Origin: Gluconobacter wancherniae NBRC 103581
GTDB taxonomy: Bacteria; Pseudomonadota; Alphaproteobacteria; Acetobacterales; Acetobacteraceae
Direction: 5' to 3'
DNA length: 64,000 bases
Assembly (NCBI RefSeq): GCF_007988885.1
Contig: NZ_BJUZ01000001.1
Location: 1,426,001 to 1,490,000 of the forward strand
Positions 44,486 to 64,000 of the stretch are shown here, piece by piece. The notes under the pieces are model-generated. The model had not been told where the DNA came from. It made no database searches and worked only from the letters and a program-made list of their open reading frames with translations. Every line of letters starts with the position of its first letter. The first letter of the stretch is position 1. The translations under genes and the position numbers were made by a program.

Positions 44486-45373
44486 GAGGGTTTCATGCTC
44501 TGGGTTGCTACGAGGCCGCGTTAATCCGCTCCAGAAAGAGGAAGCGGCGCATGTTGTAGACGATATTGGCCAGTCCGATCCTCATGGTGGCCCGGCTGAT
44601 GCCGACTGTTCCGATAAATAGTCCGGCCTGTGATTTCTGATCGATGGAAACATGCAATTTGTGGCCAAAGAACGGAATGGCATGATCCGTTGACGGGATC
44701 GTCCCATCATCCTGCCGTTTTGCTTTGGTGAACTTCAGTGTCCAGCGCGCATGGCGATCCTTGTGGGACAATCTGGATGGCTTATCTTGCCAGCCTTCAG
44801 GAATACGCCCTGCCCGGAGGTCGGCTTCCTCAGTGTTGGTATTGCGCTGCTTTGGAGCGGCTACCACTGTTGCATCTAGGATCTGCCCCGACATCGGCAG
44901 ATAGCCTGCGTTCCGCAGGGTTGTATCAAAGCGATTGAACAGTCTTTCAATAACTCCCGCCTGAGTCAGACGTTCACGGAACAGCCAGACCGCTTTGGCA
45001 TCAGGCACCCGGTCCGACAGCCCCAGGCCAAGGAAACGCATGAATGACAGACGGTCGTTGATCAGATATTCCGTCCGTTCATCAGACAAATTGTTCAGCG
45101 TCTGGATCACCAGGATTTTTAATATCAGCACCGGATCAAATAGCGGTCGTCCGCCCTTGCTTCCATCGGAATACGCCAGGGTCTTTTCCTGATCAGGACG
45201 GAACGTTTCAAAATCCACAGTCCGGGAAAACGCTTCGAGCTGATCGCCAAGCCCGCTCAACCGAGCAAGCCGCTCTTCAACATCAAAAAATCCCGCCTGC
45301 TTCACGATCCATACTCCAATCAACGCAAGGAAAATGGAATCACAGAGCAGACCTCAAAACCAGAGGGTTTTTC
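44486..45373 (-). mobile_element. IS5-family insertion element with a shortened transposase
   Basis: The ends carry imperfect inverted repeats: around CTCTGGGTTG on the left (44498-44507) and CTCTGGTTTTG read inward on the right (about 45356-45366). Homologous copies of the right end recur at 47060. The element is about 890 bases; full relatives with a complete transposase would be near 1.1-1.2 kb. The difference fits the missing transposase middle. Boundaries are approximate. Confidence 0.75.
44508..45305 (-). pseudogene. IS5-family transposase with an internal in-frame deletion
   Basis: GTG at 45305 starts VKQAGFFDVEERLARLSGLG; the DUF772-type N-terminal domain (GRPLFDPVLILKILVIQ; RLSFMRFLGLGLSDRVPD) and the first catalytic Asp in GQILDATVV are present. 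After FFGHKLHVSIDQKS the sequence jumps to QAGLFIGTVGISRATMRIGL, the extreme C-terminal end. About 85 residues with the second Asp and the VEHVFA Glu region are absent. The 265-residue product cannot have a full DDE site, so the copy is probably inactive unless helped in trans. Confidence 0.8.
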
Positions 45374-45486: not shown

Positions 45487-46926
45487 ATGAATAATTATGT
45501 TAATTTGCGGAATAATTACTTATATCAACAGGAGATATCAACGTTTTCAGAAACACCAATCGATCATAGAAAAAACGGCAACTACAAATATAAAAAATCA
45601 TTAGTCGCCTGCGCACGATGGGAAAATCAGTATATTGTCGAATGGGTTAATTATCATAAATCCATTGGATTTGATCATATATATATATATTGCAATGATG
45701 ATGATCCTTCTTCTCTTTATGATAAACTAATTCCATTCCTATCTGGAGACAATCCATTCATAACATTCGTCCACTATAACTTAGTCGGATTACAGTTCCA
45801 AATGTATTTTCATTTTCTTTGGAAATATTCAACAGAAAATGAATGGATAATGTTTTTTGATATAGATGAATTCTTACTACTTAGAAACGTAGATAATATT
45901 GATAAATTTATTGTTAATTATGATAAATATGATGCGATATACTTTAATTGGTGCTCATTCGGAAATAACGGATACGAAACAAGACCAGAAGGAAGTGTAT
46001 TAATCAATTACACAAAAAGGGAAGATGGAGCAACTCCATTTACAAAAATATTAATAAAAACAAATTCTATTCCATATAAAAAAATATATCAAATACCAAA
46101 CGCACCTATAAATCATGACTATGTCGGATTAGATAAAGAAATAATTAGCTGCAATGTTCTCCATGAGGATATGCAAAATTATTATGAAAATTTTCCTGAT
46201 TCCGCGTGGGAATATTTAAATAAAAATAACCGGAGACAAAGAATTATTGAAAAGGGATTTGTTGCTCATTTTAATATAAAATCAAATCAAGATTTTGAAC
46301 TAAGAGTGAGTCGAAGTTTGGGAGGATCTTTTGCAACCCAAAAAATCTGGGGCCAACTGACAGAAGAGCAAAAAAAATCACACCATGCGATGACCAATGC
46401 TATTGAAGATAAATATCTCCACAATTATTGGCAATCTTATGTGAACAAAGCTTGGGATCATTCTCTTTTTCTACCTTCCGAATGGACGTTAATCTCCAAG
46501 GGGAAAAAAGCTTCTCAATCATCGACTGAGCATAATCGAACGATTGAAGAAGACGCTGAGGCTATCATCAGTGGTGAAATTTGGGCACGTGCTCAAAACC
46601 ATACAAAATATGAAAAAAATCCATGGTGGGAAATAGATCTTCTTAATCATTTTAACGTACATGAAATCAGAATTTTCAACCGTATGGATGGTTGCTTAGA
46701 AAGAGTTAGTAACTTTTCGATAGAGATATCCACAGACCGACTTACATGGCATGAAATACATAGAAAAAATGATAATTTAATATATGGTGGAGCTGATGGA
46801 TTTCCATATATATGGAGAAGCATTTCTGGTTATACTGCAAAATATTTGAAGATAATTATCATTGCTCCGGATGGCGGATATCTGCATTTTGATCAAGTTG
46901 AAATATACGGAAACATCATATCGTGA
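45487..46926 (+). CDS. Glycosyltransferase (GT2-like, DUF/Glyco_tranf_2_4-GT92 type) with C-terminal F5/8C-like domain
   Basis: 479 residues, strongly AT-rich with A/T-ending codons, unlike the chromosome. AGGAG lies upstream of the ATG. Residues about 35-310 match the family with WENQYIVEWVNYHKSIGFDH and a metal-binding FFDIDEFLLL (DxD-like). From about 335 a discoidin (F5/8 type C) fold is likely: KKASQSSTEHNRTIEEDAEA, NPWWEIDLLNHFNVHEIRIFN, ISTDRLTWHEI, YLKIIII ... HFDQVEIYG. A sugar transferase joined to a carbohydrate-binding domain; the product is unknown. Flanked by IS sequence on both sides, so horizontal gain is likely. Confidence 0.8.
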   Translation: MNNYVNLRNNYLYQQEISTFSETPIDHRKNGNYKYKKSLVACARWENQYIVEWVNYHKSIGFDHIYIYCNDDDPSSLYDKLIPFLSGDNPFITFVHYNLVGLQFQMYFHFLWKYSTENEWIMFFDIDEFLLLRNVDNIDKFIVNYDKYDAIYFNWCSFGNNGYETRPEGSVLINYTKREDGATPFTKILIKTNSIPYKKIYQIPNAPINHDYVGLDKEIISCNVLHEDMQNYYENFPDSAWEYLNKNNRRQRIIEKGFVAHFNIKSNQDFELRVSRSLGGSFATQKIWGQLTEEQKKSHHAMTNAIEDKYLHNYWQSYVNKAWDHSLFLPSEWTLISKGKKASQSSTEHNRTIEEDAEAIISGEIWARAQNHTKYEKNPWWEIDLLNHFNVHEIRIFNRMDGCLERVSNFSIEISTDRLTWHEIHRKNDNLIYGGADGFPYIWRSISGYTAKYLKIIIIAPDGGYLHFDQVEIYGNIIS

Positions 46927-53757: not shown

Positions 53758-56700
53758 ATGCCTGACACAATTCTCCTGCCCGTTTCTCATGACTGCACCG
53801 GAACCCAGAACACTGTTCCTGCTGATGGAAACAACGCTGTGAGGCATGGAGTTCCGCCGATACATTTACTAGGGCACTCCGGCACATTTGAACCGGCATA
53901 TTACCTGCAAAATCACCCGGACCTGATGCATCTCGGTACGGGTATACTCGAACATTATCATCAACATGGATGGAAAGAAGGACGTAAACCCAATCCTTTC
54001 TTTGATCCCCACTGGTATCTGGAACATAATAGAGAAGTCGTCGGTGATCCTCTATTGCATTATGTACTCCACGGAGAAAGTGAAGGACGTCGCCCAATAG
54101 CGTGGTTTGACCCCGTCTGGTATCGGAAAAACTACCCAGTACCCGATGGCATGCTCGCCCTGACGCACTTTCTACGTAACCGACATTCCAGCGCTTTCCG
54201 GCCAATCCCGGAATTTGATCCTGCATTTTATCTCAACGCTTACCCTGATGTAGCAGCATCGGGGTTAGACCCACTTGAGCATTACATGATTCAGGGCTTT
54301 CGCGAGATCAGAAAGCCATTCGAAGGATTTGATCCTGTTTATTACAGGAAACGATATCTGCGCCACTCACATGACGCTAACCCACTCCTTCATTACCTTG
54401 AAAACAAACATCGAGCGGGCATTCACCCAGCACAACCTGCAAATGAACTGTCCCCCTTCAGAGAATCACAACGAAGGACAGCCCCTAATCCCCTATTCGA
54501 GGAACAGCGGGCAATACCCCCGAATGCCCTCCTGCGGGCACGGATTTGGGCGTATTATCTGCCACAGTTCCATGCAACAGAAGAGAATAATGCTTGGTGG
54601 GGCACTGGCTTTACAGAGTGGACGAACATTTCTCGCGGAATGCCAAGATTTGCGGATCACTATCAGCCACGCATCCCACGTGATTTAGGTCATTACACCC
54701 TTGATAATCCTGACATTCTCAAGCGTCAGGCAAAAATGGCAAAAAAAGCAGGGATAGAAGGCTTTATATTTTATTTTTACTGGTTCAACGGTCGCAGACT
54801 TCTAGATGGTCCATTAAAGTTATTATTGGCCAACCCTGAAATAGAACTACCATTCTGCCTAATGTGGGCAAATGAAAACTGGAGCCGGAGATGGGACGGA
54901 TCAGACGATGATGTCCTTATCACTCAAGACTACCACGAAGACGACGACATAAGCCTAATAGATTGCTTTGTTCAGTATCTTCAAGACCCGAGATATATAC
55001 ATATCGCGGGTAGACCAGTGCTTATGGTTTATAGACCAGGCAGTATACCCAACAGTCAGGCAGCATTCCTGCGGTGGCGGGAAATTTTCAAAGAACGCCA
55101 CAACCTGAACCCTATTTTCGTTATGGGGCAAGCGTTTGGTGACGAAGATCCAACACAATTCGGCTTGGACGGAGCAATTGAATTTCCTCCGCATAAAGTT
55201 GTTTCCGGCTGTCGATTATTGAATCAGGATATGCATATTTTTGATCATGATTTCGAAGCTCATATTTATGATTATTCTGAAGTGGTCAATAAAAGCTTAA
55301 GCTACCCTAAAACTAGTTATCCACTTATACGCACAGCGGCCCCCTCATGGGATAACGACGCCCGCAGACAAGGCAAAGGCCTCGTTCTGCATGGATCTAC
55401 ACCCACACTATATGAGCGTTGGCTCCATGGATTAATAGATCAAGCCAGCGAAAATCCTTTTTTCGGCGAAACTATAGTTTGCGTTAATGCATGGAACGAA
55501 TGGGCTGAAGGTGCCTATCTGGAGCCAGATGTGCACTTTGGCAGCGCTTACCTAAACGCGACAGCACGAGCCAATATGAAGTTTGAGGGAGCGAGACAAA
55601 AAACTCGCCTGCTACTCATAGGTCATGATGCATTCCCGGCCGGCGCCCAAAAACTTCTTCTCGAACTGGGGCGCAGCATCCAACGAAACCACGATGCGGA
55701 AATACGATTTATTCTTCTAGATGGTGGAGAATTATTTTCGCAATATCAAGAAGTGGCTCCAAGCGAAATTTTGACCGCTAACTCACCTGAAGCTGAAGAA
55801 CGTCTCCAGGCACTCAAAAAAGAAGGCTTTTTCTCGGCGTTAGTAAACAGTGCAGCATCATCACCAATAACAACTCAATTATATGAATTAAACATTCAAT
55901 ATTTTATCTCGATCCATGAACTGGAAGGCATTATAAAAGATCGAAACTTATTTACCAGCTTAAAAGAAGCATGTGAGAATGCTAGAAAAATTATTGTTCC
56001 ACATGATGAAATTTCTAAACGTCTAAAAATCAAACAAAAAGAAAAAATAATAGTTTGCCCTCAAGGTCTCTATAATCCAAAAATATTAGATATAAAATTA
56101 AGAAATAGAGTTAGGAAAAATTTATCTATAAATAATGATGAAATTTTGATTGTCAGCGCAGGATATGGCGACAAGAGAAAAGGTTTCGATATTTTTTTAG
56201 AATGTTGGGAGCATTTAAATGAACAAAATGTACATATGGTCTGGGTTGGAAAAATAGATTCTCAATTAAAATATTCCCTGAATCAAAAAATTAATAAAGC
56301 ACTCGATAGCGGAAAATTTCATCTCGTCGGCCAAGTAGAAAACATTTATCCTTTTCTATGTGCTGGCGACGTATTCCTATTAACCTCCCGCGAAGACCCC
56401 TATCCATCTGTAATACTGGAAGCACTAGCAAGCGGTTTGACATGCTGTGTATTTGAAAATACTGGAGGAATTCCGCACCTCCTAAAAACAATGAACGCGC
56501 ATAAAAAACATAACCATAAAATTATAGAATTTGGCAAAAGCACCGATATCATAAAAAGTGCTATCAAATGTGGAAAAGAATCAATTAACTATAAATTTTC
56601 AAAAAGACAGTTAAATTCGGTCTATTTTTCATTCGATTCATATGTAAATACCATTTACAAAATATCAAAAGAATTGATTCCAAAAATATCGGTTGCTGTA

Positions 56701-57459
56701 ATTTCATATAATTACTCGGATTATATAAGAGAAAGGTTAATATCTATTTTTTCTCAAACTTTTCCAATTTCTGAAATAATATTCGTTGATGATTCTTCCA
56801 GCGATAATAGTGTTGAAATTGCAATTAATATCGCGCGTTTGTGGAATAAAAAAATAAAAATATTTAGGAATAATAAAAATTCAGGATCTGTGTTCCATCA
56901 ATGGGAAATTGCAGTAAACTCCGCACAAGGCGATCTAATTTGGCTTGCTGAAGCAGATGATCTTGCAGATAGCGATTTTTTAGAAAAAATGGCAAATAAA
57001 ATGCTAAGAAATCATAACATCGTTATGTCTTTTTCAGACAGCAAAACTATTGACCATAATGGCAACACCATAGAAAAATCATATCGACCATACTATAAAA
57101 CCGTATCAAAAAACTCTCTCGAAATCGATAAATATTTTAATGGAATCAATTTCATAAAAGAATTTCTATCAGAAAATAATTTAATATTGAACGTGAGTAG
57201 TGCATTATTTTTACGCAACAATCTTTCTATTGCCATAGAAAAATCAAAATCGGACTTGAAATTTTTACAGCTTGCTGGAGATTGGAGAATCTACCTAGAA
57301 ATCCTTCGACAAAAAAATGCAAAAATTTATTATGACAGCTCTAATTTAAACTCTCATCGTAGGCACGCTAAATCTGTGACTCATTCTATAGAAAAAAATA
57401 TCCACATTCGAGAAATACAAATCCTAAAAGACATAGCAAAATCAATAAATATATATTGA
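53758..57459 (+). CDS. Mosaic multidomain glycosyltransferase (repeats + WbsX-type + GT4 + GT2)
   Basis: 1233 residues. Residues about 38-232 hold five imperfect repeats of 35-48 residues, each beginning F(D/E)PxxY (FEPAYYL, FDPHWYL, FDPVWYR, FDPAFYL, FDPVYYR) and ending with an HY..G..E.R(K/R)P-like turn. From about 261 a WbsX-type domain (YYLPQFHATEENNAWWGTGF; FCLMWANENWSRRWDG; CVNAWNEWAEGAYLEPD). From about 617 a GT4 transferase (LLLIGHDAFPAGAQKLL; SREDPYPSVILEALASGL). From about 975 a GT2 domain (VAVISYNYSDYIRERLISIF; IIFVDDSSSDNS; LAEADDLADSDF). The 5' half has chromosome-like codons; the 3' half from about 55.85 kb is very AT-rich. Probably surface polysaccharide assembly. Confidence 0.85.
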   Translation: MPDTILLPVSHDCTGTQNTVPADGNNAVRHGVPPIHLLGHSGTFEPAYYLQNHPDLMHLGTGILEHYHQHGWKEGRKPNPFFDPHWYLEHNREVVGDPLLHYVLHGESEGRRPIAWFDPVWYRKNYPVPDGMLALTHFLRNRHSSAFRPIPEFDPAFYLNAYPDVAASGLDPLEHYMIQGFREIRKPFEGFDPVYYRKRYLRHSHDANPLLHYLENKHRAGIHPAQPANELSPFRESQRRTAPNPLFEEQRAIPPNALLRARIWAYYLPQFHATEENNAWWGTGFTEWTNISRGMPRFADHYQPRIPRDLGHYTLDNPDILKRQAKMAKKAGIEGFIFYFYWFNGRRLLDGPLKLLLANPEIELPFCLMWANENWSRRWDGSDDDVLITQDYHEDDDISLIDCFVQYLQDPRYIHIAGRPVLMVYRPGSIPNSQAAFLRWREIFKERHNLNPIFVMGQAFGDEDPTQFGLDGAIEFPPHKVVSGCRLLNQDMHIFDHDFEAHIYDYSEVVNKSLSYPKTSYPLIRTAAPSWDNDARRQGKGLVLHGSTPTLYERWLHGLIDQASENPFFGETIVCVNAWNEWAEGAYLEPDVHFGSAYLNATARANMKFEGARQKTRLLLIGHDAFPAGAQKLLLELGRSIQRNHDAEIRFILLDGGELFSQYQEVAPSEILTANSPEAEERLQALKKEGFFSALVNSAASSPITTQLYELNIQYFISIHELEGIIKDRNLFTSLKEACENARKIIVPHDEISKRLKIKQKEKIIVCPQGLYNPKILDIKLRNRVRKNLSINNDEILIVSAGYGDKRKGFDIFLECWEHLNEQNVHMVWVGKIDSQLKYSLNQKINKALDSGKFHLVGQVENIYPFLCAGDVFLLTSREDPYPSVILEALASGLTCCVFENTGGIPHLLKTMNAHKKHNHKIIEFGKSTDIIKSAIKCGKESINYKFSKRQLNSVYFSFDSYVNTIYKISKELIPKISVAVISYNYSDYIRERLISIFSQTFPISEIIFVDDSSSDNSVEIAINIARLWNKKIKIFRNNKNSGSVFHQWEIAVNSAQGDLIWLAEADDLADSDFLEKMANKMLRNHNIVMSFSDSKTIDHNGNTIEKSYRPYYKTVSKNSLEIDKYFNGINFIKEFLSENNLILNVSSALFLRNNLSIAIEKSKSDLKFLQLAGDWRIYLEILRQKNAKIYYDSSNLNSHRRHAKSVTHSIEKNIHIREIQILKDIAKSINIY

Positions 57460-57905
57460 TGAGATATTTTAAAATTTGACACCCTATCATGCCATATATT
57501 ACATTAATTGCAATGACATGACTACCAGAATGTTAGTTATTTTAAGGTTATCATTGGTCCTGCTAAATTTGTCGAAGAAGACGTTTACGATACATCAACG
57601 AGCCGCCATCACGCAGAGGAACTGCTCACTATCACGAGCGTGACATCGGTTTCCTCGGAATTCACGCCACATATCTTTGACGTGGGGACACTACAGGCGC
57701 TCTGCACAACGGATATCCGTGCCAATCCAGTAAAAAATTAAATATCCCTTCCTATCTATGATTTTTAGGCGGCGAAGAACCGTCGATTGATGCGACTTGT
57801 TCCTAATTTCTGTGTCTTGATGGACTGATTAATGGTTGCCGTGGTGGCATTCGTTCTACGTTTTGAGTAGATCTGGGAAGATCACCCGCTGGATAGCTAC
57901 GCGCC
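57460..57905. other. Gene-free stretch after the mosaic glycosyltransferase
   Basis: Contains a possible promoter at 57476-57505 (TTGACA, 17-18 bases, TTACAT/TACATT) on the plus strand. About 70 open codons to a TAA at 57739-57741 read ...GPAKFVEEDVYDTSTSRHH... without a start codon or family I recognise. The remainder resembles nothing I can name; it probably belongs to IS debris. Confidence 0.45.
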
Positions 57906-58240
57906 TGCGTTCAACCTTTCGAAGAAGGGAAGCGGCGTATATTATAGGCGATATTGGCTAGCCCGATCCTCATAATGGTCTGGGGGATACAGACAATTCA
58001 GATGAAGCGCCCTTTATTTCCTAAAGACGTGTTCAACCTCGACACGGAATCGGATGGTGGCTTTCCGGGCGTTGGAATGCTGGATCTATCGTAGCACAGG
58101 TTTGGGATGAGGTTTTTACGAGGGCTTGATGAGGCATTTCCGTTTTTCGACGAACGACAAGCACGCCCTACGTTATCAGGACGCTGGCATTTTCGAGAAG
58201 TTTTTAGTTTAGAGTATTTATGGTTGCAGGGACACACAAC
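57906..58240 (-). mobile_element. IS5-family transposase C-terminal remnant
   Basis: 57911-57985 matches the transposase 3' end of the 44.5-kb element (bases around AGGAAGCGGCGCATGTTGTA and GACGATATTGGCCAGTCCGA). On the minus strand, shifted frames give ARKATIRFRVEVEHVFR, the Arg and catalytic Glu segment of IS5 transposases, followed by a stop. This is just the part absent from the 44.5-kb transposase. Multiple stops; non-functional. Confidence 0.65.
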
Positions 58241-58466: not shown

Positions 58467-59404
58467 CTAAATACATACCCCTGCATGAACCAGTCGCAAG
58501 GGGCGCAGCCCCCCCCCCACCACCCAGTAAGACGGTTCATGCGGGCCCGTTACATCCCACAGCGCCATATCCGCCTGCATCCCCTGACGCAGCACACCCA
58601 CCTGCTGCCCCAGCCCCAGAGCCCGTGCGCCCACAGACGTCACCGCCCGGAAACTCTCCTCGGGCGTCAGACGAAACAGCGTGCATCCCATGTTCATGAC
58701 CGCTGTCAGGCCCAGAACAGGTGACGTCCCCGGATTGCAGTCTGTCGCCAGACCGATACCCACACCATGCTCACGCAGCAATGCGACAAGCGGAAGCTGC
58801 TTTTCTTCGTGAAGAACCGGCAGAACTTCTTCGTCCAGAAACGTCACATACGCGTCCGCACGCCCCTGATATTCGGGCGGTACCGCATGCGCGCCTAGAA
58901 ACGTCTTGTGCACACGGACCGGCAGATGCTCAACGATGGCCCGCACCACCCGCAACTGTTTGAGTTCGTCCGCAAGGGTCAGTCCGTAGCCTGACTTCAC
59001 TTCCAGAGTCGTGGTGCCTTCACGGATCACCGTACGCACCCGCTTGAGGGACACCTCCAGAAGCTCCTGCTCCGATACCGCGCGCGTCGCCGCAACCGTC
59101 GAGAGAATACCGCCGCCCTTACGCGCAATCTCCTCATAGGACGCACCATTCAGCCTTTCCGCGAACTCACGACTGCGATCGCCCGCAAACACAGCATGCG
59201 TATGCGCGTCGATCAGCCCCGGCGTCAGCCAGCCGCCACGCCCGTCCTCAATCTGGATGGCCAGATTTTCCGGCACATCCGGCAGATCGCCCCGTCGCGC
59301 ACGCCTACGGCACCATTGCTGATACAGCCATCCCCATTCCCGGCCGTGACAAGAGCCTCATCACCCGTCGCAAGATGGACATTGAGCCAAAGGACGTCCC
59401 ACAT
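58467..59404 (-). pseudogene. hutI: Imidazolonepropionase remnant (frameshift plus internal deletion)
   Basis: Third enzyme of histidine breakdown. ATG 59404 begins [19 protein letters not shown] ... GAVGVRDGA as in HutI, then the frame shifts near 59290 so that [16 protein letters not shown] continues in another frame. The metal site [19 protein letters not shown] and [10 protein letters not shown] are intact, but [12 protein letters not shown] joins directly to [13 protein letters not shown]. About 100 residues including the KLHADQ and SADHLE histidines are gone. A 10-base C run (58509-58518) lies near the 3' end. Total coding length is about 310 codons against about 400 normally. Confidence 0.85.
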
Positions 59405-59438
59405 GGTTCTTCTCCGAATTGTTCCGGTTGTGGTGATG

Positions 59439-59452
59439 TATGTATATACATA
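59439..59452. promoter_or_regulatory. Candidate HutC operator between hutI and hutF
   Basis: Perfect 14-base palindrome TATGTATATACATA in the divergent hutI/hutF intergenic space. Known HutC sites in other proteobacteria have a TGTATATACA-type core; the match and the location support an operator controlling both directions. Confidence 0.65.
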
Positions 59453-59524
59453 TCAGTCAATCCTATCATGATCTTGGCCGGATCACGGAACCTGCTTTCC
59501 CCTCGTGCAACCTGGAATTTCGTG

Positions 59525-60159
59525 ATGACCGAAGTGTTTGCAAAACAGGCTCTCCTGCCACAGGGGTGGCGCCGCAACGTCCAGATCACCATCGCCGCTG
59601 ACGGGACGTTCGCCTCCCTCACCCCCGAGAGTAAACCCGGCCCGGATATGCAGCTTCTGGAAATGGTCGTGCCTCCGCAGATCAGCCTGCATTCCCACGC
59701 CTTCCAGCGCGCCAGGGCTGGCGGAGCGGAGACAGAACCCGAACGACACCTTCTGGACATGGCGCACGCGCATGTACCAGCTTGCAACACCGCATCTCCC
59801 CGAAGCAGATGCAGGACGTGGCCGGTCTCTGCCCGATCACGGAAGCCAATCTGGGAGACGGCATTTTCCCGTTCGAAGCCTATGTCGCGCAATCAGGTCG
59901 CTTCGGCATAGGGAGCGACAGCAACGTCCTGCTCAGTTCGTGGGAAGAACTCCGCCTTTTGGAATATGGCCTGCGCCTGCAAAGCCAGAAACGCTGTGTG
60001 GCCCTCCTCCCGGACCACAAGGGGCCAATCGGCGCGTGGCTGTATCGCCAGAGCCTTGCCGGGGGCGCGCAGGCCAGCGGCCTGCCCCTCAGCGGCCTGC
60101 AACCCGGCGCCCGCGCCGATCTGTGCGTCCTCGACAAGCAGGCCCTGTCCCGATCCTGA
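59525..60159 (+). pseudogene. hutF: Formimidoylglutamate deiminase remnant
   Basis: Three frames are needed. Frame 1 from ATG 59525: FAKQALLPQGWRRNVQITIA to LHSHAFQRA. Frame 2 from about 59720: GLAERRQNPNDTFWTWRTRM then YQLATPHL. Frame 3 from about 59800: QMQDVAGLCPITEANLGDGI, GRFGIGSDSNVLLSSWEELR and LAGGAQASGLPLSGLQPGAR. The central 230-250 residues, with the metal-binding and catalytic histidine segments, are missing, and the C-terminal end after ADLCVLDKQAL is cut short. About 210 codons remain of about 450. Confidence 0.85.
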
Positions 60160-60904
60160 TCACAATCCCCCATGCGGGCGACCATCTGGCGCCGGGCATG
60201 GAAGAGCGTATAACCCCGCGCGGCAGAAAACTGCCCGATACCGACTGGTACATGGAGCATCTCTATGCCTTCGCGCTGTCAAAAGGGATCGACATCCTGC
60301 GCGCGAATTTCTCCCGCTATGTCGTGGACCTGAACCGAGGCCGGAATGACGCCGCCCTCTATGCCGGACGGCCCAGCACGGGTCTGGCGCCACTGCTGGG
60401 CTTTGACGGACAGCCTATCTATCAGGACGGTCAGGAGCCGGATGCCGACGAAATTGCCGCACGGACAGACCAGTACTGACAGCCCTATCACGACGCCGTA
60501 TAGGCCGAACTGACGCGCCTCCGGGAACAGTCCTGTGGGATGCCCATTCCATCTGCTCGGAAATCCCCAGACTGTTCGAAGGGCGCCTGCCGGACCTGAA
60601 CTTCGGCACCAACAGCGGGGCCTCCTGCGCACCCTCACTGGCCGAAGCGCTTCTCGCCCGCGCAGAAACCCTCACCGCCTACACCCATGTCCGCGATGGC
60701 CGATTCAAAGGCGGCTACACAACGCCCCATTACGGCCAGCCAGCGGACAACATCCACGCCACCCAGCTCGAAATCGCCCAGTCCACCTATCTCGCCTCAG
60801 AGCAGGCCCCCTGGCCCATCGACCTTCAGGCCGCCGCCAGCCTCTCGGCCGCCATCGAACCCCTGTTGGCAACAGCCTCAGACTGGCGCCCCGAAAGCTC
60901 CTGA
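60147..60904 (+). pseudogene. hutG: N-formylglutamate amidohydrolase remnant
   Basis: PVPILITIPHAGDHLAPGM, LPDTDWYMEHLYAFA, FSRYVVDLNRGRNDAALY are normal for HutG. At 60477-60479 a TGA replaces the expected Trp of YWQPYHD, and at 60497-60499 a TAG follows in YHDAV*AEL. After TRLREQ a frameshift leads to VLWDAHSICSEIPRLFEGRL ... FKGGYTTPHYGQPADNIHAT to the natural end. The 5' end runs directly out of the shortened hutF, so the junction also lost bases. Confidence 0.85.
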
Positions 60905-60907
60905 ACA

Positions 60908-61492
60908 TCAGCCGGGGGCAACGCAATACAAAAGGCCGTCCCCGGCCGATTCCAGCCGCCCGACACTCCCTTCCGGCAGCACCAGATACGCCCCGGCCAC
61001 GCAGGTCCGGGGCTGCCCCGACGCTCCCTCAAACACCCAGCACCCCCGTGCGACAACCATCGCGCGCGCCGCAGACACTTCAAAACCCGAAGCATCCCCG
61101 CCCCGAACCGCCTCCATCCGCCACGGGCGGTCCGCAGGATGCATCAGGTTCACCACCTGAACCGGCCCGCCCACAAGAATGGCCTCCACATCCAGATCGC
61201 CGGAAAACGTCAGAATTTCCCCGGCCCGGACGACTTCCCGCTCCGTCCCGTCCGAAAGACGAAGCCGCACGCCCCGCCCCGTCAGCAGCGCAATCTGCCT
61301 CGAAATCCCCGGAAACCGCGAGAAAGCACCATCCTGCGTAATCTCCGCAACGCTCAGACGCCACTCTTCGCCAGAAACAATGACCCGCGTCAGGCCACCA
61401 CCGTTTTTCCACGCCTGCGCGACAAGGTTTTCAACCGGCTGCGGCCCACGGGACAACGGGAAAAGATTGTCATTTTCCGGATCCGGCTTCAT
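60908..61492 (-). CDS. hutD: HutD/Ves-family cupin-like protein
   Basis: 194 residues from ATG 61492. WKNGGGLTRVIVSGEEWRLS, AEITQDGAFSRFPGISRQIA and LLTGRGVRLRLSDG are the HutD pattern; bicupin fold is expected. HutD limits hut expression and has been proposed to bind a pathway intermediate such as formylglutamate or urocanate. It is convergent with hutG and divergent from hutC, and shows no damage. Confidence 0.88.
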   Translation of the reverse strand: MKPDPENDNLFPLSRGPQPVENLVAQAWKNGGGLTRVIVSGEEWRLSVAEITQDGAFSRFPGISRQIALLTGRGVRLRLSDGTEREVVRAGEILTFSGDLDVEAILVGGPVQVVNLMHPADRPWRMEAVRGGDASGFEVSAARAMVVARGCWVFEGASGQPRTCVAGAYLVLPEGSVGRLESAGDGLLYCVAPG

Positions 61493-61525
61493 ATGGTCAT
61501 ACGCCTGCTTAGGGGTGTGTCTCAT

Positions 61526-61537
61526 ATGTAAGTACAA
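61526..61537. promoter_or_regulatory. Candidate HutC operator between hutD and hutC
   Basis: ATGTAAGTACAA, an imperfect palindrome related to the TGTATATACA core, lies 20 bases before the hutC start in the divergent hutD/hutC gap. It suggests autoregulation. Confidence 0.45.
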
Positions 61538-61556
61538 CAACCCAGCAGGATCAGAA

Positions 61557-62342
61557 ATGCTCTCCCGCCCACAGAGGGCAGACCAGTCCTCAAGAGAAGA
61601 AAAGGCAGCGGGCGCCGTGTCGCAGATCCTGGACAAGACGAAGACCATCGCACGTTACGAGCAGGTGAAAGCCTTCATCATCGAGCGGATCGACTGCGGG
61701 GAATGGAAAGTCGGCCACCGCCTCCCCTCCGAACATGAATTCGTCGAACAGCTCGGCATTTCCCGCATGACGATCCACCGGGCACTGCGGGAACTGACGG
61801 CCGAAGGGATCGTGCGCCGCGCACAGGGGGTCGGAACTTTCGTGGCCCAGCCCGCCAAACGCGTCGAACTGCTGGAAATCCGCGATATCATCGACGACAT
61901 CGTCGCCAGCGGCCACCAGCACCGTGCCGAAGTCATCGCCGTGGAGACGGTGCGGGCCGACAGCGATCTGGCCACGGCGTTCGAACAGCGCCCCGGCACG
62001 CGTCTGTTCCGCTCCCTAATCGTCCATTACGAAGACGATGTGCCCCTTCAGCTTGAAGAGCGCTACGTCTCTCCGCATTTCGCCCCGGATTATCTGGAAC
62101 AGGATTTCACCCGCATCAATCCTCACCGCCATCTTTACGGCATCGCCGGGCCGGAAGAAATCGAACATGTGGTCTTTGCCGTCACGCCCCCGCAGGAGAT
62201 CTGCACCCTTCTGCAACTCGACGAACCGGAAGCCTGCCTGCAACTGATGCGCCGCACATGGGTCGACGGACGCGTCGTCATGAAGGGCATCTTCACCTAT
62301 TCCGGCAACCGCTACAGCTTCGGCGGGCGCTATCGCCCCTGA
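61557..62342 (+). CDS. hutC: HutC, GntR-family repressor of histidine utilisation
   Basis: 261 residues from ATG 61557 with AGGA eight bases upstream. N-terminal winged helix about residues 33-100 (RLPSEHEFVEQLGISRMTIH; REL..GIVRRAQGVGTFV), then a UTRA ligand domain (DDIVASGHQHRAEVIAVETV; YEDDVPLQLEERYVSPHFAP; RRTWVDGRVVMKGIFTYSG). HutC binds urocanate. No lesions seen. The first roughly 25 residues before the HTH are low-complexity. Confidence 0.93.
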   Translation: MLSRPQRADQSSREEKAAGAVSQILDKTKTIARYEQVKAFIIERIDCGEWKVGHRLPSEHEFVEQLGISRMTIHRALRELTAEGIVRRAQGVGTFVAQPAKRVELLEIRDIIDDIVASGHQHRAEVIAVETVRADSDLATAFEQRPGTRLFRSLIVHYEDDVPLQLEERYVSPHFAPDYLEQDFTRINPHRHLYGIAGPEEIEHVVFAVTPPQEICTLLQLDEPEACLQLMRRTWVDGRVVMKGIFTYSGNRYSFGGRYRP

Positions 62343-62390
62343 AGACAACGTCCGGCGGATTGACGCCCCCGACACGCCGCCTCTAAAGTT

Positions 62391-62416
62391 CTCTCTTGTA
62401 TAGACAACCAAGAGAG
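62391..62416. promoter_or_regulatory. Candidate HutC operator / inverted repeat before hutH
   Basis: CTTGTATAGACAA (62395-62407) resembles the HutC core. It sits inside a perfect 8-base inverted repeat CTCTCTTG (62391-62398) / CAAGAGAG (62409-62416) that ends five bases before the hutH start and overlaps its ribosome-binding area. Confidence 0.5.
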
Positions 62417-62421
62417 CCGCC

Positions 62422-63930
62422 GTGACCGAACTCCTGCTCGATCAGCCTTTCTCTCCGCAGGACATCTGCGACATCGCCCGGAACAGAAAAACGGTCCGGC
62501 TGTCGCAGGCGGCGCGGAAACGGCTTGAAGACGCCAACAGGCGCCTGCGCGTTCTGGTCGAAAGCGAGGGCGCCGCTTACGGACTCAATACGGGCGTCGG
62601 CGGCCTGTCGGACACGCGGATCACGCCCGAAAAACAGTCCACACTCTCCCGCAAGATCCTCTTCAGCCATGCCACGGGCCTTGGCGCCCCCCTCAGTACC
62701 GAAGCAACCCGCGCCATCATAGCCTGCGCTGTCAACCAGTACTGTCTGGGTTATTCCGGCCTGCGCGCGGAGATCGTCGACCGCCTCGTCGCCCTCCTCA
62801 ACCACGATTGCCTGCCAATCGTGCCGAGTGACGGATCGGTCGGATATCTCACACACATGGCCCATATTTCCCTGACCCTGATCGGTCACGGAACGCTCCG
62901 GACCAATGGCACGGAACACCCCGCCGCCAAGGTACTGGAACGGCTCGGCTTTCCACCGCTCGTTCTTGAAGCCAAGGAAGGGTTGTGTCTGGTCAACGGC
63001 CTCTCCTGCGCATCCGGAATTGCCAGCCTCGTCACGGAAGAAGCCGCCACCTGCCTCCACTGGGCAGACAGGATCGCCGCTGCGACCTTTGATGTCCTTG
63101 GCGGACAACAGCGCGCCTTCGATCCACGCTTGGCAAACCTCCGCATCCCGCCCGGCCATCGCGCCGTCTCACAGGCCCTCAACCAGAATCTGGCAGGCTC
63201 GACTAGGATCGCAGACGCCCGAGGCCAGCGCACACAGGACGCCCTGAGCCTGCGCGCCATCCCCCATATTCATGGATCGGTCCACGACGCCCTGACCGGC
63301 ATCCGCCACACCGTCACACAGGAATTGCAAAGCCTGTCCGACAACCCCGCCATCATTGAGGACGAAACAGGCATCGGCGCTTTCTCCGAAGCCCATGCCG
63401 TCGGTGCCAGCATTGCCCGCGTCATGGACGAAGCCGCCATCGCGCTAGCCTCTCTGGGCGCTGTCTCCGAACGCCGTCTGGACCGCATGGTCAACCCCCT
63501 GCTCAGCCCGCTCCCGGCGTTCCTGTCGAGCGATTCCGGTACGGGAAGCGGCTTCATGATCGCGCAATACACGGCAGCCTCGCTTGTCAGCGCCAACCGC
63601 CGCAATGCCCTCCCCGCCAGTCTGGATGGCGGCATTACCTCAGGTCTTCAGGAAGACATTCTCGTCCACGCCACACCAGCGGCTCTCAAGGCACGGGACG
63701 TTGTCGCCAATACGCGATCCATTCTCGCGATCGAACTCCTGGCCCTCTGTCAGGCTGTGGACCTCGCCGGCCTCACCGGAGAAATTTCCCCCCGCACGCT
63801 GGAGCTTTACAACAGCGTGCGGGCCATCCTTCCCCTTTACGAGGAAGACCACCCGCTGGCGGACGATATCACCCGACTTGAAGTCCTGATGCAGGCCGAC
63901 CCTCCGTGCCGGACGCCCGGATCTCCCTGA
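62422..63930 (+). CDS. hutH: Histidine ammonia-lyase-like protein lacking the MIO Ala-Ser-Gly
   Basis: Family deaminating histidine to urocanate. 502 residues from GTG 62422, full family length and no stops. YGLNTGVGGLSD, FDPRLANLR, SLSDNPAI and SGFMIAQYTAASLVSANR follow the aromatic amino acid lyase fold. At residues 138-146 the sequence is GSVGYLTHM where canonical enzymes have GSVGASGDLAPLAHM, so the Ala-Ser-Gly that cyclises to the MIO electrophile is absent. The C-terminal motif ASLDGGITSGLQEDILVHAT also differs from typical HutH. Either a divergent subfamily or an enzyme that has lost classic chemistry. Confidence 0.85.
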   Translation: MTELLLDQPFSPQDICDIARNRKTVRLSQAARKRLEDANRRLRVLVESEGAAYGLNTGVGGLSDTRITPEKQSTLSRKILFSHATGLGAPLSTEATRAIIACAVNQYCLGYSGLRAEIVDRLVALLNHDCLPIVPSDGSVGYLTHMAHISLTLIGHGTLRTNGTEHPAAKVLERLGFPPLVLEAKEGLCLVNGLSCASGIASLVTEEAATCLHWADRIAAATFDVLGGQQRAFDPRLANLRIPPGHRAVSQALNQNLAGSTRIADARGQRTQDALSLRAIPHIHGSVHDALTGIRHTVTQELQSLSDNPAIIEDETGIGAFSEAHAVGASIARVMDEAAIALASLGAVSERRLDRMVNPLLSPLPAFLSSDSGTGSGFMIAQYTAASLVSANRRNALPASLDGGITSGLQEDILVHATPAALKARDVVANTRSILAIELLALCQAVDLAGLTGEISPRTLELYNSVRAILPLYEEDHPLADDITRLEVLMQADPPCRTPGSP

Positions 63931-64000
63931 GGAGAACAGGCAGCCCGAACGGAAGGCTGACCACACAGGCCACACACCCGGCAATGCCAAGCATCGTGAA
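63869..64000 (-). CDS. Partial membrane protein C terminus (possible transporter)
   Basis: An open minus-strand frame of 43 codons enters from the window edge (TMLGIAGCVACVVSLPFGLP then VLLREIRAS) and stops at 63869, overlapping the last 62 bases of hutH. It has one hydrophobic segment and a basic tail, as in the last helix of a transporter. Too short to identify; a hut permease would fit the context. Confidence 0.35.
   Translation of the reverse strand, partial: FTMLGIAGCVACVVSLPFGLPVLLREIRASGTEGRPASGLQVG

Follow-up and report, generated by a model that had tools for sequence, protein, structure and literature searches.

Eroding hutI, hutF and hutG genes in an apparently acquired island of Gluconobacter wancherniae, with a complete second hut locus on the same contig

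That genes can be lost through deletions between short direct repeats has been described in maize (PMC2893956). In that work, the homeologs undergo fractionation, whereby redundant copies are removed piecemeal by deletions, many of them repeat-flanked (10 of 16 gaps, with repeats of 3-24 bp). The locus described here appears to be trimmed likewise, with repeats of 4-8 bp at four of its seven deletions; unlike the polyploidy of maize, the setting is bacterial and the redundancy would have come through horizontal transfer. A closer parallel in lineage comes from the same family: the gut Acetobacteraceae possess mosaic pathways in which acquired genes and erosion together lead to mixed pathways (PMC6558740). 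The present case differs in that two versions of one pathway stand in one genome, each having lost parts complementary to those lost by the other. A third described system is ergothionase (PDB 6s7j/6s7q), an ergothioneine trimethylamine-lyase that belongs to the HAL family but has no MIO, as is the case for hutHx, a HutH paralogue without the corresponding triad (PMC13405746). The kinds of event involved are already known, and the case is a clear snapshot of them, in which an acquired catabolic island appears to be caught in mid-trimming: redundant steps erode, and parts that the host does not cover persist.

The window, that is the whole stretch of DNA analysed, comprises 64,000 nucleotides of G. 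wancherniae NBRC 103581 (C1:1426001-1490000) from a genome (G000) of 2.78 Mb in nine contigs. Among the papers listed by literature searches on HutH without MIO, on relatives of ergothionase and on Gluconobacter hut pseudogenes, none dealt with the window locus.

Lesions and selection at the window locus

The genes are ordered hutI (-), hutF (+), hutG (+), hutD (-), hutC (+) and hutHx (+), followed past the window by an MFS transporter (-), hutU (-) and a TonB receptor (-). Three of them, hutI, hutF and hutG, are broken, and the others are open. The features are as follows.

57889..58006, minus strand: decayed tail of a presumably IS5-type transposase (blastn, 74% over 119 bp against the transposase ORF at 44508-45323, likewise presumed to be IS5)
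58500..64000, no strand: left part of the apparently acquired island (collinear at 89.9-94.4% nucleotide identity with G002 C11:48058-86324; core recN-ligA 72%)
58467..59404, minus strand: hutI remnant in two pieces (TIGR01224, 276.9 bits, below the cut-off of 298)
58799..58805, no strand: junction of the 273-bp deletion in hutI, repeat GCTTTTC
59282..59288, no strand: junction of the 25-bp deletion in hutI, repeat GCAGATC
59441..59450, no strand: putative HutC operator TGTATATACA between hutI and hutF, perfect match
59525..60151, plus strand: hutF remnant, 3' end missing (alignment with relatives)
59817..59824, no strand: junction of the 564-bp deletion in hutF, 8-bp repeat
60148..60151, no strand: junction of the 233-bp deletion fusing hutF to hutG, repeat TCCC
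60148..60904, plus strand: hutG remnant with TGA at 60477, TAG at 60501 and a 13-bp deletion after 60530
60908..61648, minus strand: hutD-like gene, open (Ves family, 34.9 bits, far below the cut-off of 292; no indel relative to L209)
61557..62342, plus strand: hutC1, intact repressor (TIGR02018, 268.6 bits, above the cut-off of 220)
62397..62406, no strand: putative HutC operator upstream of hutHx, one mismatch (motif comparison)
62422..63930, plus strand: hutHx, HutH paralogue without the MIO triad (TIGR01225, 430.9 bits, below the cut-off of 539.15)

The lesions were defined against the intact syntenic locus L209 of genome G002, in which hutI, hutF and hutG are all full length; full-length intact orthologues occupy the same place in L211, L026, L215, L216, L217 and L272 as well. 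The hutI gene lacks 273 bp, an in-frame loss of 91 codons where an earlier, sequence-only reading had put about 100 residues, and a further 25 bp near the 5' end, which that reading had not noted and which cuts the native start off from the remaining gene. In hutF, 564 bp (188 codons) and 5 bp are lost and 1 bp is gained, in agreement with the frame changes read there. The 230-250 residues counted as missing from hutF correspond to two separate deletions. A single event of 233 bp took both the 3' end of hutF and the beginning of hutG and fused the two genes. The earlier picture of genes keeping both ends and losing their centres holds for the central losses, frame changes and stops, but not for these two gene ends. 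The TGA, the TAG and the frameshift (the 13-bp deletion) of hutG are as had been read. In addition, 13 bp are missing from the hutI/hutF intergenic stretch, and 6 bp are inserted in a C run close to the end of hutI. The list of lesions covers the sequence from 58500, left of which there is no homology, to 61700, where the compared stretch ends; within it the deletions are confined to 58805-60530, and hutD and hutC up to 61700 have none.

Short repeats, sought at the deletion end points, are present at the four largest deletions: 7 bp at each of the hutI deletions (273 and 25 bp), 8 bp at the 564-bp deletion in hutF and 4 bp at the 233-bp hutF/hutG deletion. The repeat at the 273-bp junction measures 0 bp as first aligned and 7 bp once the junction is shifted 2 bp to the left. 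At the three small deletions, the repeats measure 2 bp (hutF, 5 bp), 1 bp (hutG, 13 bp) and 1 bp (intergenic, 13 bp). When breakpoints are placed at random in this region, a repeat of at least 4 bp turns up in 1.8% of cases (P=0.018) and one of at least 7 bp in 0.27% (P=0.0027). The decay of the three genes is real and its mechanism is ordinary; the description of the pattern as unusual gives way, as the maize work already describes deletions at short direct repeats (PMC2893956).

Substitutions tell the broken genes from their neighbours. Window-only changes were called where two or more of the outgroups L210, L211 and L026 set the polarity; gapped codons and those lacking agreement of two outgroups were omitted. 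On the window branch, hutI, hutF and hutG accumulated 35 synonymous against 34 non-synonymous or stop changes, and hutD, hutC, hutHx, the MFS transporter and hutU, pooled, 114 against 14 (Fisher p=6e-9), which indicates relaxed selection on the former. The corresponding figures for the L209 branch are 16:4 and 48:11, and for hutI, hutF and hutG the two branches differ (p=0.02). The TonB receptor, counted likewise, gives 30:6 on the window branch and 27:1 on that of L209; hutD taken alone gives 2:2, too few changes for judgement. In the window, hutC, hutHx, the transporter, hutU and the TonB receptor are under continuing constraint.

The island, the resident locus and their regulation

Collinearity with G002 begins at the left island edge (58500) and extends past the window to about 95610, at 89.9-94.4% identity (mostly about 94%). 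Contig C1 ends at window coordinate 95677, and the right side stops with the contig, so that the length of at least 37 kb is a lower bound. Identity to G002 of about 94% stands against 72% in one core stretch, recN-ligA, whose identity to the remaining 24 members of the genus that were examined is 67-73%. Composition is foreign as well: GC3 is 0.66-0.76 in five island genes, against 0.51-0.57 in four core genes and 0.51-0.59 in the second hut locus, and recN plus ligA of G002 have 0.68. A search of the G000 genome for the sequence next in line in G002 returned short pieces at 75% identity or less. The window locus apparently begins a horizontally acquired island, to judge from these comparisons derived from another acetic acid bacterium.

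The second locus (L003) lies on the same contig, about 350 kb off, and comprises complete hutG2, hutF2, hutI2, hutU2 and hutH2, with NCBIfam scores of 317 bits (cut-off 279), 567 (413), 448 (298), 960 (375) and 703 (539), respectively; hutH2 has the Ala-Ser-Gly triad. Second copies of hutI, hutF and hutG, sought in the genome, are therefore present and intact, and the window locus is a spare one. Beside these intact enzyme genes, hutC2 (L003:10440-11259) is broken by an in-frame TAA that replaces a tyrosine codon and, compared with genome G158, has a 7-nt gap within the DNA-binding part. Its best open frame begins at profile position 14, the first 13 positions being missing, but as it still scores above the cut-off (236 bits against 220), residual function is possible. 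With hutC2 broken, the decay looks reciprocal, the loss of the resident regulator being complementary to the erosion of the apparently imported enzymes. Of the genomes compared with the second locus, G158, which belongs to a different genus, is closer to it than are the two members of the genus, G011 and G002, and 'resident' accordingly means long-resident by composition only. Directly downstream of hutH2 there is a TonB receptor in pieces (L003:14605-15848).

The broken genes are probably part of a horizontally acquired island, as redundant copies eroding beside the resident pathway. The source would be a high-GC relative of G002, from which a block of 37 kb or more would have passed into a lower-GC member of the genus whose own hutG-F-I-C-U-H operon was already complete. 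Duplicating resident functions, the imported hutI, hutF and hutG would have eroded through deletions at 4-8 bp repeats, small indels and stops, while imported hutC1, hutHx, the MFS transporter, hutU1 and the TonB receptor would have been kept by purifying selection, being non-redundant or for other reasons. What we infer here is that redundancy caused the decay, that the transfer ran in this direction and that regulation acts in trans. A counterpoint to redundancy is hutU1, which is equally redundant (88% amino acid identity to hutU2) yet kept. A trimmed island next to a complete resident pathway is the more interesting content of the window.

With resident hutC2 broken, both loci may now be under the control of the imported HutC, by way of an operator that they share. 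The palindrome TGTATATACA, which we take to be the HutC site and which fits its positions, occurs perfectly between hutI and hutF in the window, L209, L026, L211 and L216, and also upstream of hutU2 in the resident locus. The site upstream of hutHx has one mismatch and that between hutD and hutC two; none was seen just upstream of hutU1. The hutF2/hutI2 site has three mismatches, no better than chance, and its G158 counterpart has one. None of 3000 random 130-bp pieces, drawn from the window at large, contained the operator with 0 or 1 mismatch, the consensus having been picked after the window site was seen. Action of the imported HutC on the resident hut genes is plausible on these grounds.

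hutHx, a HutH paralogue without the MIO triad

In the window and in the best 80 of 577 relatives, which belong to several proteobacterial genera, hutHx has a Tyr and a three-residue gap in place of Ala142-Ser143-Gly144, keeps the residues aligned with HAL Tyr53, His83, Asn195, Arg283 and Glu414, and carries Leu for Tyr280 and Ala for Phe329 (in numbering presumed to be that of Pseudomonas putida HAL). Lacking the triad, it is not expected to act as an MIO lyase. It also scores under the hutH equivalog cut-off (TIGR01225), and is, like the MIO-less trimethylamine-lyases of the ergothionase kind, a member of the HAL family without MIO. The name 'histidine ammonia-lyase' for 62422-63930 would come from similarity alone. 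The regulator, hutD and 'hutH' had all been read as open, and open they are, but 'hutH' is without the Ala-Ser-Gly of histidine ammonia-lyase; as evidence for a histidine route it was dropped, and the window locus may not be such a route at all, eight relatives with the same locus having likewise given no canonical-type HutH among the candidates scored.

The best guess from these comparisons is that hutHx would work in the manner of ergothionase and release trimethylamine from a histidine betaine. Such an activity would explain the presence of hutU, hutI, hutF and hutG at loci without canonical HutH; uptake of urocanate itself would be an equally good explanation. As a point of difference, hutHx scores higher against a HAL structure (7tqr, 277.7 bits) than against ergothionase (174.8 bits). 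In a search with the MIO region, ergothionase ranked 26th of 39. The setting differs too, in that hutU at the hutHx locus scores as a urocanate, not a thiourocanate, hydratase; HutU1 reaches 964 bits as the former and falls below the cut-offs of both thiourocanate hydratases, so that hercynine is favoured over ergothioneine. Within the DNA fetched around the best 80 of 577 hutHx loci, hutU occurs in 17, hutF in 16, hutI in 13 and hutG in 12, and such low counts would argue against hutHx serving the hut pathway in general. Several acetic acid bacteria have hutHx as the only close HutH relative reported by the searches, next to hutU, hutI, hutF and hutG, so that the question of its substrate lends itself to testing.

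The readings weighed here are not mutually exclusive, and the erosion of redundant copies could be extended to a composite regulon. Imported HutC would govern the resident enzymes, hutHx would make urocanate from a histidine betaine (e.g. hercynine) and resident HutU, HutI, HutF and HutG would finish the pathway, only the imported front end being kept; this extension is possible but rather doubtful.

Relatives and the rival explanations

Among 26 genomes of the genus, hutHx is present in five (G000, G002, G014, G017 and G019) and canonical-type HutH in nine; both occur together in one, the window's own G000. The canonical-type hits are 36-38% identical to hutHx and, outside G000, have Ala-Ser-Gly in 8/8 cases. 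A third HutH-like type without the triad (GSIGCADVGLM; weak hits at 26%) is seen in G013, G017, G002 and G019 (L149, L150, L151 and L152). The family search covered 397 genomes, with the three best candidates scored per genome; among the matches listed, hutHx is 62-80% identical in G147, G356, G314, G377 and G367, and 48-49% in G202 and G270. Full-length hutI, hutF and hutG adjoin hutHx in seven genomes (G002, G017, G019, G147, G356, G314 and G377); canonical-type HutH was not reported in these seven or in G014, on the basis, for the family part, of the top three candidates per genome among the matches listed. In G314 and G377 the second HutH hit is of an MIO-less type.

In G367, canonical HutH with Ala-Ser-Gly lies on one contig, hutU, hutC, hutI, hutF and hutG on another, and hutHx at a third place with none of these genes within 17.5 kb. 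Such a canonical hut set, with hutHx apart, parallels the window strain. G202 and G270 have hutHx without hut genes in about 18 kb, and one further HutH hit of G202, on inspection, was of another MIO-less type. A second MIO-less type (GSVGYLVAT/GSVGYLIAT) is seen in G314, G202 and G377 (L217:15217-16653, L270 and L272), and a frameshifted copy in L028. The 21-kb loci L057 and L067, from Acetobacter nitrogenifigens and Acetobacter sp. DsW_063, have a TonB receptor, an MFS transporter and hutHx, but no hut genes. The co-occurrence of hutHx, hut genes and canonical HutH is presented as an apparent pattern, with no claim of statistical association.

The decay could be unrelated to the second locus, a substrate or niche having been lost or hutI, hutF and hutG simply breaking often. 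In G014 hutF has a 1-bp frameshift within a C run, and Acetobacter okinawensis L028 has hutHx plus a frameshifted hutG, with no canonical HutH reported in either; hutD, moreover, has stops in G017 and G377. The lesions in G014 hutF and L028 hutG either reflect errors in the sequence or show decay in genomes that have no second locus. Such a cause is nonetheless unlikely, as hutC, hutHx, the transporter, hutU and the TonB receptor of the window are still constrained, and the seven relatives keep hutI, hutF and hutG at full length beside hutHx, with no canonical-type HutH hit among the candidates scored. Redundancy as the cause would rest on the window genome together with the G367 parallel.

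More improbable still is an assembly chimera or contamination, in which a 37-kb block from another strain near G002 would have been joined at the contig end. Identity does shift sharply at 58500, and the block stops where the contig stops. The ORF starts of the island past hutU look catabolic or transport-related by eye, not like core markers, and a contaminant of this kind could therefore escape marker-based estimates. The contamination estimate is nevertheless 0.27%, and a recN-ligA search found a single copy in G000. Across four segments, about 21.6 kb in all, that were compared between the window, G002 and G014, window-only changes are GC>AT:AT>GC 404:173 and G002-only changes 160:148 (p=1.7e-7). 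By segment the ratios are 128:56, 137:64, 91:32 and 48:21 for the window and 65:35, 64:68, 25:35 and 6:10 for G002; in the first, hutC-TonB, the G002 branch leans toward AT too and the contrast is weak. Some substitutions will be misassigned, as G014 is 81-92% identical in the compared stretches. An AT-leaning window branch is what is expected in a low-GC host; it fits an island drifting toward its host and speaks against contamination. The reverse assignment, with the second locus as the import and the window genes decaying after duplication inside a native locus, was considered and is turned round by core identity, GC3 and substitution bias.

That the strain has lost histidine catabolism, its last three steps gone, which the deletions, frameshifts and stops in hutI, hutF and hutG had suggested in the form of a predicted failure to grow on histidine by this route, is scarcely credible given the full resident set of five enzymes over NCBIfam cut-offs on the same contig; decay of a pathway in a single window does not by itself imply that the trait is gone.

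The region between the core genes and the island includes AT-rich genes at 45487-46926 (GC 0.32) and 53758-57459 (GC 0.40), the latter glycosyltransferase-like by eye. The transposase at 44508-45323 lies near these genes, and its decayed counterpart at 57889..58006 sits 0.5 kb outside the island edge.
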